From positions 62,001 through 126,000 of the forward strand of contig JAGWYJ010000001.1 of the NCBI GenBank assembly GCA_018969425.1: 64,000 nucleotides of DNA, given 5' to 3'. The notes beneath the pieces are model-generated. The model saw nothing but the letters and a program-made list of their open reading frames with translations. It was not told the DNA's origin and made no database searches. The number at the start of each line of letters is the position of its first letter. Within the stretch, counting starts at the first letter, position 1. Shown in pieces: positions 30,427 through 62,792 of this stretch. A program made the translations under genes and the position numbers. The DNA comes from Alphaproteobacteria bacterium. Its GTDB lineage: Bacteria > Pseudomonadota > Alphaproteobacteria > Caulobacterales > Hyphomonadaceae.

Positions 30427-31416
30427 TCAGCTCAGCCCCATGGCCTCAGACGCCAGACGCAGAGATCGGACGCGCATCGAGTGATCCCAGATGGAGGACG
30501 AGATGATGAGTTCATCCGCTCCGGTTCTGTCCAGAAGGGCCTTCAGTCGCGATCGCACGTCGTCGACGGTACCTACCGCCGAGCATGAAAGGGACTGAGC
30601 AATGACGCCCTCGAGCGCGGGATGAAGTTCCAGACCCTCGACCGGGTGAGGCAGTTTTCCGGGACGCCCGGAGCGAAGATTCGCAAAGGCCTGCTTCAAC
30701 GATGAAAACAGATAAGCCGCCTCGCTGCGGGATGGCGCGGCGATGACGTTGGCGGCCACCATAACGTGAGGGTGATCGAGACAGGCTGACGCCCGAAAAC
30801 GGTCTCGATACACCCGCAACGCCGAATCAAGATCGGCAGGCGCGAAGTGGGAGGCGAATGCGAAGGGCAAACCCAGCGCTGCAGCCACCTGAGCTCCGAA
30901 GAGGCTTGAGCCCAGTATCCACACCTCAACCTTCGCCCCAGCCCCCGGGACTGCTCGAACAGCCTGGCCCTGCGCCGCCGGCTCAAGCCAGCCCAGAAGC
31001 TCGACCACATCCTGAGGAAAGCGGTCAGGATTGCTGTCCAGACTTCGTCTGAGGGCTCGCGAGGCGGCCAGATCAGATCCCGGAGCCCTTCCTAATCCCA
31101 AGTCGATACGCCCGGGATGAAGGGCCTCAAGGGTGCCGAACTGCTCAGCGATCGCCAGAGGCGCATGATTGGGCAGCATAACGCCGCCGGCTCCGATGCG
31201 AATGCGGCGCGTGCCGGCGGCGAGATGAGCCAGAACGACAGATGTGGCGGAACTGGCCACGCCTTCCATGTTGTGATGTTCCGCCACCCAAACCCGCGAA
31301 TAGCCCAGACTCTCCGCCTCCCGGGCGAGGTCGAGACTGTTGGCCAAGGCCACGCCGGCGGATGCGCCCTCAGCAACCGGGACAAGATCAAGCAGAGACA
31401 GCGGCGTCATGGTCAT
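30427..31416 (-). CDS. Luciferase-like (LLM class) flavin-dependent oxidoreductase, MsnO8 type
   Basis: 329 residues forming a single bacterial-luciferase TIM barrel. Conserved blocks: [20 protein letters not shown] at the start, [60 protein letters not shown] and RAPGSD. This combination is characteristic of the MsnO8/YhbW-like subgroup, which uses reduced F420 or FMN. Substrate is unknown. It stops 10 bases after the dbpA-like gene ends and faces it, so the two are convergent with no visible terminator. Confidence 0.9.
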
Positions 31417-31542
31417 AATCCAGCTCTACTCCACAATCACGCCGCCCTCTCCGTTTTAAAAGCAGACGGCTTGTCGCTGGCGCGCCACGCTGATAGCCGG
31501 GACGTCAAAGCGAAGGCCGGGGGCGCTCGGAGACAATCGCCA

Positions 31543-32295
31543 ATGTCGCAATCCAGTCCGCAGATCGATCCGAGTTTCGTGCGCCTCCAACTGGACTTCG
31601 CCTGGGTCCTGCGCGAGCTCATAGACGCCCCGCTTGCAGATATCCTTCTTCCCAACACTCAATTCCACAGACTCCTCGGCCTCGGCCGCCCCGATCAGGG
31701 ACCTGCGGAAGGCTGGCGACCCATCGCAGAAGAGATCGATCGTCTGGACGCCTCCGACACGGTCGAGGCGTTTCTGATCGAGTCTCTACGTTCCGCACCG
31801 CCTCCCGCACCAGACCCGAACCTTACCTTATTCGGTTGCTTCGCATGCGAAAAACCCAACGCGTCAGGCGGGGTCAGGATCCACTTCACTCATCGCGACC
31901 CTCGCCCCGGACCAGGCCCGCTGTCCCGGAGCCGCCTCCATGCGCGTCGCGCAGACCTGATCTCCATGATTGACCATCTCACCGCCTCGGAGCCTCTCGC
32001 CCGAACGATCGAAGGGGCTTCATGGCTTTACAACACCGAGGCCTACCGACGCATCTTCCCAGCCGACTACGTATCCTCCCTGAAACCGAAGGCAGGCCCG
32101 CGCACCCTGACGGGTTATTCCTACTGGGGCCAGTTCATCGATCATCAGGGACGATTGAAGTCCGGTCCGGCCCACGCCTTCCGTGATCGATTTTCCGAAC
32201 TTAATGCCGAGGCCCCGTGGCAGATATTTCCCTACCAGGCTCTTCTGGCGAGCGCTCCGCTCGCATCATTCTCCAGCGTCAGCCGATCCGCCTGA
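31543..32295 (+). CDS. Conserved-looking protein of unknown function with CxxC motif
   Basis: 250 residues from the ATG at 31543. A longer frame to 31117 exists but would run antisense into the luciferase-like gene, so I reject it. No known domain is recognised. Features: a short helical N-terminus ([20 protein letters not shown]), one CxxC in [13 protein letters not shown], then [18 protein letters not shown] and [20 protein letters not shown], which read like a folded globular core rich in aromatic residues. There is no signal peptide or membrane helix. Codon usage and GC match neighbours. It converges with the gamma carbonic anhydrase gene, overlapping by 17 bases. Confidence 0.7.
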
Positions 32296-32803
32296 GCCCG
32301 GAAGCATAGCGCCGCCAGTTGGCGACATAATGATGGGCGGAGGCTGTGATCATCTGAACCTGCGCCTCACCCAGCTCACGCACCACTTTTCCAGGAGCCC
32401 CCATGACGAGGGAGTTGTCCGGAATTTCCTTTCCCTCGGTAATCAGAACATTCGCCCCTATCAGGCAGTTACGACCAATCCTGGCTCCATTGAGTATGAT
32501 CGACCCGATACCGATCAGGGTGTTGTCCCCGATCGTACATCCGTGCAGCATCACCAGATGACCGATGGTGCAGTCGCGGCCGATGGTGAGCGGCTGACCC
32601 GCATCAGTGTGAAGAACAGAGCCATCCTGGACGTTCGAGTTCTCCCCGATCGTGATGGGATCATTGTCCCCTCGCAGGGTCGCGCCAAACCAGACGCTCG
32701 CCCGGGGACGCAGGACCACTCGCCCGATCACTGTGGCGCTCTCGGCCACCCAGGTGTCCGGGTCAATTTCGGGAACCGCACCGTCGAGTTCATAAATCGC
32801 CAT
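32279..32803 (-). CDS. Gamma carbonic anhydrase family protein (left-handed beta-helix)
   Basis: 174 residues built from hexapeptide repeats ([LIV]G-x4), as in [40 protein letters not shown] and [20 protein letters not shown]. Histidines that bind metal in gamma-class enzymes are present ([15 protein letters not shown]). Members (YrdA, PaaY, CaiE types) may hydrate CO2 or act as thioesterases; activity cannot be told from sequence. The short C-terminal helix carries [20 protein letters not shown]. Its 3' end overlaps the convergent unknown gene by 17 bases. Confidence 0.92.
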
Positions 32804-32869
32804 CGGGCCGCCTCTCTCAGAACTGTGTCATTAGGGTTTTATTAAAGTCCGAAACCTCTATCTTGAACA

Positions 32870-33047
32870 GGTCGTGATTCGCAGGAGATCCTGTGTTGAG
32901 ACGAGACTTGATCAGTCCCGGCCGTATGGCTCCTCCATGGCGATCCTGTTCGCCGCCGAGGGAGGATCTCCCGACAAGGCGACCTATCCGGCTGGCACGA
33001 CCGGTGAGCCCCAAAGAAGCCGCAGAGCCCCGCGCCTGCGGCTTTTT
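32870..33047 (+). ncRNA. Candidate structured small RNA or leader ending in an intrinsic terminator
   Basis: The 289-base gap before phoH is not coding but folds convincingly. GGTCGTG (32870-32876) pairs with CACGACC (32996-33002). GGAGATCCT (32884-32892) pairs with AGGATCTCC (32963-32971), a perfect 9-bp stem. Inside is a hairpin GGCGA/TCGCC (32939-32943, 32950-32954). A classic intrinsic terminator follows, GCCGCAG/CTGCGGC with TTTTT (33019-33047). Nothing else on the plus strand needs that terminator. It could be a free sRNA or an attenuating 5' leader of phoH, whose ATG is 46 bases on. I do not see SRP or tmRNA signatures. A 6S-like rod is possible but unproven. Confidence 0.5.
33019..33047 (+). 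terminator. Intrinsic terminator upstream of phoH
   Basis: Seven-base GC-rich stem GCCGCAG (33019-33025) / CTGCGGC (33036-33042), 10-base loop, then five T (33043-33047). Textbook rho-independent form on the plus strand. It lies 46 bases before the phoH start, so it ends an upstream small transcript or attenuates phoH. Confidence 0.8.
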
Positions 33048-33092
33048 CATGCGCCCGAAACCCCATCCCAAACCCGCTCAGGGAGTGACTGC

Positions 33093-33896
33093 ATGACCAA
33101 GCGATCCGCCATCCGTGGAGTGCGCACCGACACCCATCTCGAGGATGTCCCGCAACTCAACGTCATCCGGGGCGGATGGGACCCCGACGAGGCGTATGAG
33201 CGCTCAGGCAAACGACGACAGCGAGCTTCGGAGCCTCCCTCCGCTTCCGCAGCGGGCGGACGGGATCAGTCGTATGTCAAAAATGTTCAGGCCCGCTCGG
33301 AGGGGCAGGCGCGCCTGATGGACGCCATTGATCGTTCGGACGTCGTTCTGGCCTTAGGACCGGCAGGAACGGGCAAAACCTACCTCGCAATCTCCAAAGC
33401 CGTGGAGGCGCTTCGCTCAGGAAAAACAGGGCGTATTGTCCTGTGTCGTCCCGCCGTGGAGGCGGGAGAAAGAATCGGTTTCCTGCCTGGGGACATGGAG
33501 GACAAGCTCGCGCCTTATCTCAGACCCCTCTATGACGCGCTCGCGGACCGTATGGCTCCACGTCAGATCCGGCAGATGACAGCTGACGGCCTCATCGAAA
33601 TTGCACCCGTCGGTTTCATGCGGGGTCGCACGCTGAACAACGCCTTTGTGGTGATCGATGAGGCGCAGAACTGCACCTATGTCCAGCTGAAGATGCTTCT
33701 GACCCGTCTTGGCTGGAACTCGAAAATGGTGGTCACGGGCGACCCCGCTCAGTCAGATCTGCTTCCGGAACTCTCGGGGCTAGCGCCCGCGGCGGCGCGC
33801 CTCGAGGCCCTTGAAGGCGGGCCAAGCGTGGTGCGCCTTGAAGCGCGTGATGTCGTGCGTCATCCGCTTGTCGCAAGAATGCTCGGCGCGTTGTAG
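33093..33896 (+). CDS. phoH: PhoH family P-loop ATPase
   Basis: 267 residues from the ATG at 33093, chosen because GGGAG precedes it and the frame upstream runs through the structured leader. After a ~55-residue variable N-terminus comes the PhoH domain: VQARSEGQARLMDAID, Walker A LALGPAGTGKTYLAI, RPAVEAGERIGFLPGDMEDK, the segment LIEIAPVGFMRGRTLNNAFV, Walker B VVIDEAQNCT and TRLGWNSKMVVTGDPAQ. PhoH ATPases are linked to phosphate starvation and RNA/ribosome metabolism; ybeZ-type members act with YbeY. No ybeY lies next to it here, which leaves the subtype open. A structured RNA candidate sits directly upstream. Confidence 0.93.
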   Translation: MTKRSAIRGVRTDTHLEDVPQLNVIRGGWDPDEAYERSGKRRQRASEPPSASAAGGRDQSYVKNVQARSEGQARLMDAIDRSDVVLALGPAGTGKTYLAISKAVEALRSGKTGRIVLCRPAVEAGERIGFLPGDMEDKLAPYLRPLYDALADRMAPRQIRQMTADGLIEIAPVGFMRGRTLNNAFVVIDEAQNCTYVQLKMLLTRLGWNSKMVVTGDPAQSDLLPELSGLAPAAARLEALEGGPSVVRLEARDVVRHPLVARMLGAL

Positions 33897-61838: not shown

Positions 61839-62792
61839 TCAGGGTTTGGGCGCAGCAGGAGAATCGCGCCCGAAGTTCGGAGCTGCGGTGTCCTGACCCG
61901 CTTCGATGATCGATTTTCGAACCCCTCGGGCGCGGGTGAAGACGTCAAAAAGCAAATCCCCTTCCCCCCAACGAATCGCACGCTGGAGCGCCGTGAGATC
62001 CTCGTTGAAGCGACCCAGGATTTCGAGAACGGCTTCGCGATTATTCAGGAACACATCGCGCCACATTGTCGGATCCGAAGCGGCGATCCGCGTAAAGTCA
62101 CGAAATCCTGCGGCCGAAAACTTGACGACCTCCCCCTGGGTGACCTGTTCGAGATCCGCAGCTGTCGAGCAGATATTGTAGGCGATCAGGTGAGGGACAT
62201 GACTTGTTATGGCGAGCACCAGATCGTGACGCGCCGCGTCCATGGTCTCCACCCGGGATCCCAGACGTTCCCAGAAGCGGGTAAGAGCCGCCACAGCTGA
62301 GAGATAGGCCTCGTCACCGTCCGGCTCCGGGGTCAGGATGCACCATCGTCCGCGAAACAGGGAGGCGAAGCCCGCATCTGGGCCCGACTTCTCGGTCCCG
62401 GCTATCGGATGGCCCGGGATGACGTACAGCCCAGGACGCGAAAGGGTTCGCAAGTCTCTCGCAACGCTCGCCTTGACGGATCCGACATCCGTCAGGATTG
62501 CCCCGGACTTCATTGAGCCTGCACACAGAGCGCCCGTTGCCGCCAACGCGCCGACCGGCATGCACAGGAAGACCGCGTCCGCCTGAGACACCGCCTCCGA
62601 AAGCGAGGCCGCCGGCTCGCCCAGTCCAAGCTCAGCGGCGCGAGCCAGTGTCGAAGGATCCTGATCCCAAAGAGACACGCCCTGAGCGGCTCCGGTCTCC
62701 ATGGCTGCACGCACAAGAGAAGAGCCGATCAGACCGACCCCGATAACGCTTATGCGACCGAAGATCGGAGCGGATGATGGGTCAGTGTTCAT
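61839..62792 (-). CDS. tyrA: Prephenate/arogenate dehydrogenase (TyrA type)
   Basis: 317 residues. NAD site VIGVGLIGSSLVRAA, then the prephenate dehydrogenase core with VFLCMPVGALAATG, ILTDVGSVKASVARD, PGHPIAGTEKSGPDAGFASL (active-site His region) and AITSHVPHLIAYNIC. It oxidises prephenate (or arogenate) to a tyrosine precursor. The start overlaps the hisC stop (ATGA), and both are co-transcribed; HisC-type aminotransferases in such operons often act on aromatic precursors. Confidence 0.93.
   Translation of the reverse strand: MNTDPSSAPIFGRISVIGVGLIGSSLVRAAMETGAAQGVSLWDQDPSTLARAAELGLGEPAASLSEAVSQADAVFLCMPVGALAATGALCAGSMKSGAILTDVGSVKASVARDLRTLSRPGLYVIPGHPIAGTEKSGPDAGFASLFRGRWCILTPEPDGDEAYLSAVAALTRFWERLGSRVETMDAARHDLVLAITSHVPHLIAYNICSTAADLEQVTQGEVVKFSAAGFRDFTRIAASDPTMWRDVFLNNREAVLEILGRFNEDLTALQRAIRWGEGDLLFDVFTRARGVRKSIIEAGQDTAAPNFGRDSPAAPKP

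Follow-up and report, generated by a model that had tools for sequence, protein, structure and literature searches.

The E. coli pyrBI operon senses UTP through pausing in U-rich RNA. Its leader ORF, pyrL, is reported to be coupled to an intrinsic terminator near the structural gene, and a translating ribosome to prevent termination (PMC5021804); in the same report, a synthetic reporter with PPPPPP before the pyrL terminator (Elgamal et al. 2016) depends on EF-P for its expression, which drops 26-fold in an efp mutant and less than 2-fold in the wild type. In Salmonella, the short Pro-codon leader ORFs mgtP and mgtL are reported to control downstream transcription (PMC3641672, PMC6460261). The trp, his and ilv attenuators are described as sensing particular codons with a leader peptide ahead of an intrinsic terminator, and an ilv leader has been described in Caulobacter (PMC4117421).

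The locus described here lies in the window, the whole stretch of 64,000 nucleotides that was analysed (positions 62,001 to 126,000 of contig JAGWYJ010000001.1), which comes from a hyphomonadaceal alphaproteobacterium whose genome comprises 91 contigs. Its likeness to pyrBI is one of anatomy only: the gap upstream of phoH holds a leader ORF coupled to an intrinsic terminator near the gene. Unlike pyrBI, the leader in the window has no U-rich pause tract, there being no TTT between the last Pro-Pro and the hairpin (32959 to 33016), and the conserved element is a Pro-Pro motif. With polyproline upstream of an intrinsic terminator it is like the PPPPPP-pyrL reporter, but that reporter is artificial, whereas phoH would offer a natural example and, if our reading is right, the counterpart of a construct built to demonstrate that ribosome-polymerase coupling is maintained by EF-P. 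It differs from mgtP and mgtL in having an ORF that spans an intrinsic terminator and in most cases stops where the gene starts; and, contrary to what we propose for phoH, poor proline decoding raises the mRNA in Salmonella, for another gene in other bacteria. In contrast to the trp, his and ilv leaders, no competing antiterminator was found for it and its ORF does not end before the terminator. We consider it probable that the gap is a transcribed 5′ leader of phoH in which a leader peptide attenuates transcription, a polyproline stall being the sensor: a small ORF leads into a terminator before the gene, and its sensor codons are conserved, though with exceptions. The leader-peptide attenuator is a kind already known; among the literature matches listed there was no report of a phoH leader peptide, and no precedent for a natural polyproline stall and a terminator in the same ORF with no antiterminator.

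The gap sits between phoH and a divergent minus-strand gene (Table 1), which we take to encode a gamma-carbonic anhydrase or a protein like it. The earlier note had stated that no plus-strand gene upstream needs the terminator; the direct neighbour is on the minus strand, and whether the wider surroundings are free of such a gene is uncertain, given a plus-strand ORF at 31117-32295 that has no Pfam match and ends 0.7 kb upstream. This long ORF converges on the hexapeptide-repeat gene. Overlooked in that note was the frame that opens at TTG 32896 and runs through the terminator to the TGA ending at 33096. It encodes LRRDLISPGRMAPPWRSCSPPREDLPTRRPIRLARPVSPKEAAEPRACGFFMRPKPHPKPAQGVTA, has an alternative in-frame start at GTG 32893, and its stop overlaps the phoH ATG as ATGA. 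EF-P is encoded in the genome.

Table 1. Features of the phoH leader and its flanking genes, in coordinates of the window.
Feature	Position	Strand	Remarks
Hexapeptide-repeat gene, divergent neighbour	32279..32803	-	PF00132; kept in most Caulobacterales loci compared
Helix 1, GGTCGTG/CACGACC	32870-32876/32996-33002	+	No change in G002, the sole alignable relative; covariation silent
GATTC (GANTC) site, 5′ side of leader	32876..32880	+	GATTCG kept in most relatives
AGGAG, Shine-Dalgarno of leader ORF	32883..32887	+	8 nt 5′ of TTG; 5-nt match
Helix 2, GGAGATCCT/AGGATCTCC	32884-32892/32963-32971	+	2/9 pairs broken in G002
Leader-peptide ORF	32896..33096	+	TTG start, 66 codons, TGA stop 33094-33096
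First Pro-Pro pair, CCT CCA, APPW	32932..32937	+	Read from the sequence
Inner hairpin, GGCGA/TCGCC	32939-32943/32950-32954	+	In the sequence as described earlier
Second Pro-Pro pair, CCG CCG, SPPR	32953..32958	+	Aligns with RPPP(P) run of congeners
Intrinsic terminator inside leader ORF	33017..33047	+	GC hairpin and T5; T-run encodes Phe-Phe
phoH	33093..33896	+	267 aa, PF02562 E 1.7e-77; ATG 33093; gene taken as regulated

Searching 101 genomes at the DNA level brought up, apart from the window's own sequence, a single match, in G002, a member of the same genus that is 89% identical over all 275 nt. Further comparisons used loci with the closest PhoH, which are mostly from Hyphomonadaceae and Caulobacteraceae and for which the name Caulobacterales is our own assignment. 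Comparison among relatives brings out gene order, the terminator, a reading frame and conserved Pro-Pro codons. The order of divergent neighbour and phoH is found at 77 of the 80 named loci (the best 80 of 527), and at the remaining three (L043, L063, L070) the sequence ends within about 330 nt of phoH. It recurs at 28 of 30 loci in a further set, where L018 is cut by its contig and L031 has 1.4 kb of upstream sequence with the neighbour gene absent. Most Caulobacterales loci compared keep, in the gap, the GATTCG, an intrinsic terminator near phoH and a small frame through that terminator. Of the 97 distinct gaps taken from loci with the closest PhoH, 85 carry GATTCG in the upstream portion, where shuffling predicts 9.3.

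As far as sequence comparison can tell, the conserved signal at the leader is the reading frame with its Pro-Pro codons, not the long helices. RPPP or longer occurs in the same frame in ten congeners (L006, L008, L010-L017), eight of which have RRPPP; the eleventh, G002, has SPPG in the leader frame, and leader frames of other genera carry PPG, PPP or PPPP motifs. An automatic test independent of hand-picked frames, which took the best of three frames in real and shuffled gaps alike and counted related gaps as independent, found a Pro run of at least two in a frame that has a start and stays open into the T-run in 92/97 gaps (shuffled 51.2±4.5), of at least three in 43/97 (shuffled 10.5±3.0) and of at least four in 15/97 (shuffled 1.3±1.1); Pro-Pro is absent by this test in five gaps. 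Greedy thinning at 80% identity left 56 gaps, 53 of them with Pro-Pro, at a threshold that is weak because shuffled pairs align at 64% on average and at up to 80%.

We also curated 79 leader ORFs, whose frames were picked by hand and partly with Pro-Pro in view; all four Pro codons are used in them. Of the 79, 67 were aligned in 12 groups as nucleotides, blind to frame; there, the Pro-Pro codons in the ORF frame differ 265, 281 and 652 times at positions 1, 2 and 3 over 1473 comparisons, which are ordered pairs and non-independent. The resulting third-position ratio is 2.39, against 1.07 for other fourfold codons in the same frame and 1.37 and 1.17 for Pro-Pro in the other two frames. On these counts and those of the automatic test, Pro-Pro is conserved as amino acids. 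The frame crosses the T-run start in 79/79 curated ORFs, a count that the curation favoured, and so has the pyrBI-type trait of running through an intrinsic terminator; 60/79 stop within -30 to +10 of the phoH ATG. Between the longest Pro-Pro run and the hairpin downstream of it there is a median distance of 45 nt (quartiles 38-59, range 4-96, n=72). RPPP or longer is present in 13 curated ORFs and TPPP or TPPPP in nine. In E. coli, RPPP is reported to stall more strongly than any other XPPP motif of one series and to rank with the strong ones of a second, with TPPP among the weakest (PMC4176338); since TPPP is nearly as common as RPPP in these leaders, strong stalling is not a rule across genera.

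The intrinsic terminator with five T, described before as ending at 33047, is present. Its score lies above the 99th percentile of shuffled gaps in 75/97 distinct gaps, and not in the other 22. In the window's group (12 loci), 92/99 stem cells are paired and 13 changes affect both sides; for Caulobacteraceae (14 loci) the figures are 121/139 and 18, against 0-7 such changes in the slid controls for these two groups; terminators of Hyphomonas and Henriciella (13 loci) show no excess, with 83/119 cells paired and two both-side changes (slid 2-9). The T-run starts a median of 30 nt upstream of the phoH ATG, too close for a separate promoter to fit easily in between, and phoH is therefore probably transcribed by read-through of the terminator. 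Pairing of four leader segments with both terminator arms, in 60-69 leaders per segment, revealed no antiterminator (mean z 0 to 0.3). The classical trp/his-type attenuator was set aside, as no antiterminator was found.

Promoter position, leader translation, direction of control and signal would then be as follows. RNA polymerase would start near GATTCG, and a ribosome would load at the leader ORF and trail the polymerase, passing the Pro-Pro motif or motifs, crossing the terminator and mostly ending at the start codon of phoH. Prolines decoded without delay would keep the ribosome close to the polymerase, with the hairpin blocked and phoH transcribed. A ribosome stalled at the prolines would let the polymerase move ahead; the terminator would then fold and a leader RNA of about 170-185 nt would be released. 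Proposed causes of such a stall are a shortage of active EF-P, a shortage of tRNA-Pro that is charged or correctly modified, or a general slowing of translation. At the median distance given above, a ribosome stalled at Pro-Pro would usually leave the hairpin uncovered, and a following ribosome would cover it. Smooth translation should turn phoH on and stalling should turn it off, a direction that we infer from the ORF running through the terminator, from the lack of an antiterminator and from the behaviour of the pyrL polyproline reporter.

PhoH proteins are widespread ATPases whose role is unclear. In Caulobacter, we infer that CC_2644 and CCNA_02727 are the same gene, encoding the PhoH with this leader, from the order of the gene numbers and from the other Caulobacter PhoH being, as we assume, the ybeY-linked one. 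The gene is reported to be among the transcripts most raised by carbon starvation (44.6-fold, as CC_2644; PMC3073932), and to rise 10-fold in an ntrC mutant and be restored by glutamine (as CCNA_02727; PMC10274813), a reversal that leads the authors of that report to conclude against simple direct repression. This response could mean that stalling turns phoH on. The same leader peptide would then follow a reversed logic, like that of mgtP, in which a stall at the prolines favours read-through and phoH is on when proline decoding fails, for example in starvation; Salmonella offers reported parallels, as low proline raises mgtC and mgtB transcription via the Pro codons of mgtP (PMC3641672) and efp deletion raises mgtA mRNA via those of mgtL (PMC6460261). 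We regard this reversal as rather unlikely: it leads one to expect an alternative pairing with a terminator arm, of which the search of 60-69 leaders found none, and an ORF that spans the terminator means that a moving ribosome should disrupt the hairpin.

If, as we prefer, smooth translation of the leader turns phoH on, the gene would report how fast ribosomes move past prolines, and with it EF-P activity or the charge or modification of tRNA-Pro. A switch set by the speed of leader translation would be a directly testable cause of the phoH response, and would tie PhoH to ribosome stalling. Ribosome profiling in Caulobacter is reported to have yielded 94 new CDSs, most of them small (PMC4117421), and the Caulobacter leader ORF may be among them.

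The earlier note had read the gap as a ~175-nt sRNA, a 6S-like rod or an attenuator leader of phoH. The last of these fits, the 6S-like rod does not, and a free sRNA is unlikely; the finding was real but misread. All three helices that the note had named are there. Positions 32865-33050 (186 nt) fold at a predicted -82.1 kcal/mol, with a z of -3.58 against 200 dinucleotide shuffles, one of which was as good; for the whole 275 nt the fold z is -2.19, with 2/200 shuffles as good. Compensatory change in the stems had been suggested as a check. Helix 2 speaks against it, since the two pairs broken in G002 are both uncompensated and the MFE fold predicted for that relative is unlike the window's; helix 1, being invariant there, is silent; and paired changes rise above the slid controls in the terminator stem alone, in two of the three groups tested. 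A conserved RNA fold was accordingly rejected as the main signal beyond the terminator. Helix 2 could cover the Shine-Dalgarno of the leader ORF.

Searches against Rfam (RF00013 included) placed no family above its gathering score in the window, and a loose cut-off added two sub-threshold matches there, to other families and at chance level (E 1.1 and 3.5). In 17 relatives there were four matches (E 0.013-0.97), all below gathering scores. A known sRNA family of Rfam 15 was thus dropped as a candidate for the window and these relatives, and 6S RNA was excluded, given no match in the window and a 6S-like RNA elsewhere in the genome. The latter lies at G000:C21:8214-8376, where its score of 36.7 bits falls short of the 46.4 set by Rfam. 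In favour of a trans-acting sRNA that stands alone, is some 175 nt long, has C-rich loops and ends at the terminator, with read-through into phoH only incidental, one can name the strong predicted fold, the conserved terminator and the C-rich segments of relatives; termination should yield an RNA here whichever reading holds. We nevertheless find it improbable: the fold is lost in the nearest relative, no Rfam match reached the cut-off in the window or the 17 relatives, the C-rich conservation is codon-phased, and the distance from T-run to phoH leaves scant space for a separate promoter. A structured RNA of this sort was also rejected on its helices, which show no compensatory change in the one alignable relative.

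Outside the Pro-Pro codons, evidence of coding from overall codon substitution is weak or absent, which counts against a functional protein. Between the window and G002 the ORF differs 9, 8 and 8 times at the three codon positions, with no bias, and 1/19 changed codons is synonymous in the ORF frame against 5/19 and 4/22 in the other frames. Over 29 pairs the ORF has a pN/pS of 0.85, against 1.01 and 1.07 in the other frames, and its third-position excess is not significant (p = 0.12). A column-shuffle test for coding within the genus gave a weak signal: 12 to 33 of 200 shuffles did as well. Judged from these alignments, a near-neutral peptide with a kept frame and kept stall codons is as expected of a leader peptide whose product is unimportant. 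A functional small protein, co-operonic with phoH and with a terminator that merely tunes dosage, would explain why the frame is open in distant relatives, why 17/27 indels are multiples of 3 and why the stop overlaps the phoH start in many loci. But the near-neutral sequence outside Pro-Pro, the lack of any Pfam or NCBIfam match to the window peptide and the extension of some leader ORFs far into phoH (L073, L082, L095, L100) weigh against it, and we consider it very improbable, slightly more so than the trans-acting sRNA.

ACG stands at the leader start position in L042, L047, L026, L027, L051, L052 and L062 (Hyphomonas and near), and ATG at the aligned position in L046 and the Henriciella loci. 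An ATC/ATT/ATA start in Hyphomonas was considered and dropped, as the aligned start position is ACG in seven loci and ATG in L046. Perhaps ACG serves as a near-cognate start codon in the Hyphomonas-type leader ORFs.

The attenuator that we favour has exceptions in its own order. Pro-Pro before the hairpin is absent in 7/79 curated ORFs, four of them from Brevundimonas. These Brevundimonas loci (L092, L101, L102, L106) have DPGG in place of Pro-Pro in the curated frame, and L101 and L102 have a second hairpin-like stretch before phoH. We further looked at eight members of the order outside the 97 gaps, two of which (L133, L134) went unread as the search pattern missed their phoH start. Four of the six readable ones are without Pro-Pro: L114 and L130 have a strong terminator, and L131 and L132 lack that too. 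The other two fit, L018 with RPPP and L031 with PPP and a weak terminator. Because of these four additional members without Pro-Pro, our confidence in the attenuator has been lowered. On present alignments, the Pro-Pro leader occurs widely in the window's family and in Caulobacteraceae, but not in all members of the order.

Outside the order, we compared 15 genomes of the same class with the closest PhoH (E <= 2e-87). A strong terminator precedes phoH in 9/15, and a Pro-Pro frame runs into it in eight of those nine, against 4.9 (sd 1.3) for shuffled leaders; the sole Pro-Pro of L123, and one of two in L124 and L128, falls within the hairpin itself. When the 15 outside stretches were taken together with L114, which belongs to the window's order, L114 alone gave a convincing match to the neighbour gene. 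These counts are suggestive only of a Pro-Pro leader beyond the order. On a more specific reading, which we put forward with some doubt, the leader is a natural and deeply conserved pyrBI-like attenuator gated by polyproline, with stall motif and terminator in one ORF and no antiterminator; it would have persisted in Hyphomonadaceae and Caulobacteraceae, and perhaps in some of the other Alphaproteobacteria with this PhoH, even though little else of the leader sequence is conserved.

In a deep branch of Hyphomonadaceae, the leader ORF continues in frame into phoH at L095 and L100, and L095 and L112 have a weak terminator; fusion of leader and phoH is possible in this branch (L095, L100, L112). 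The GATTCG site contains GANTC, the CcrM methylation motif. CtrA is reported to have a Caulobacter phoH among its targets (PMC3073932), which, together with the conservation of GATTCG, may point to cell-cycle control.
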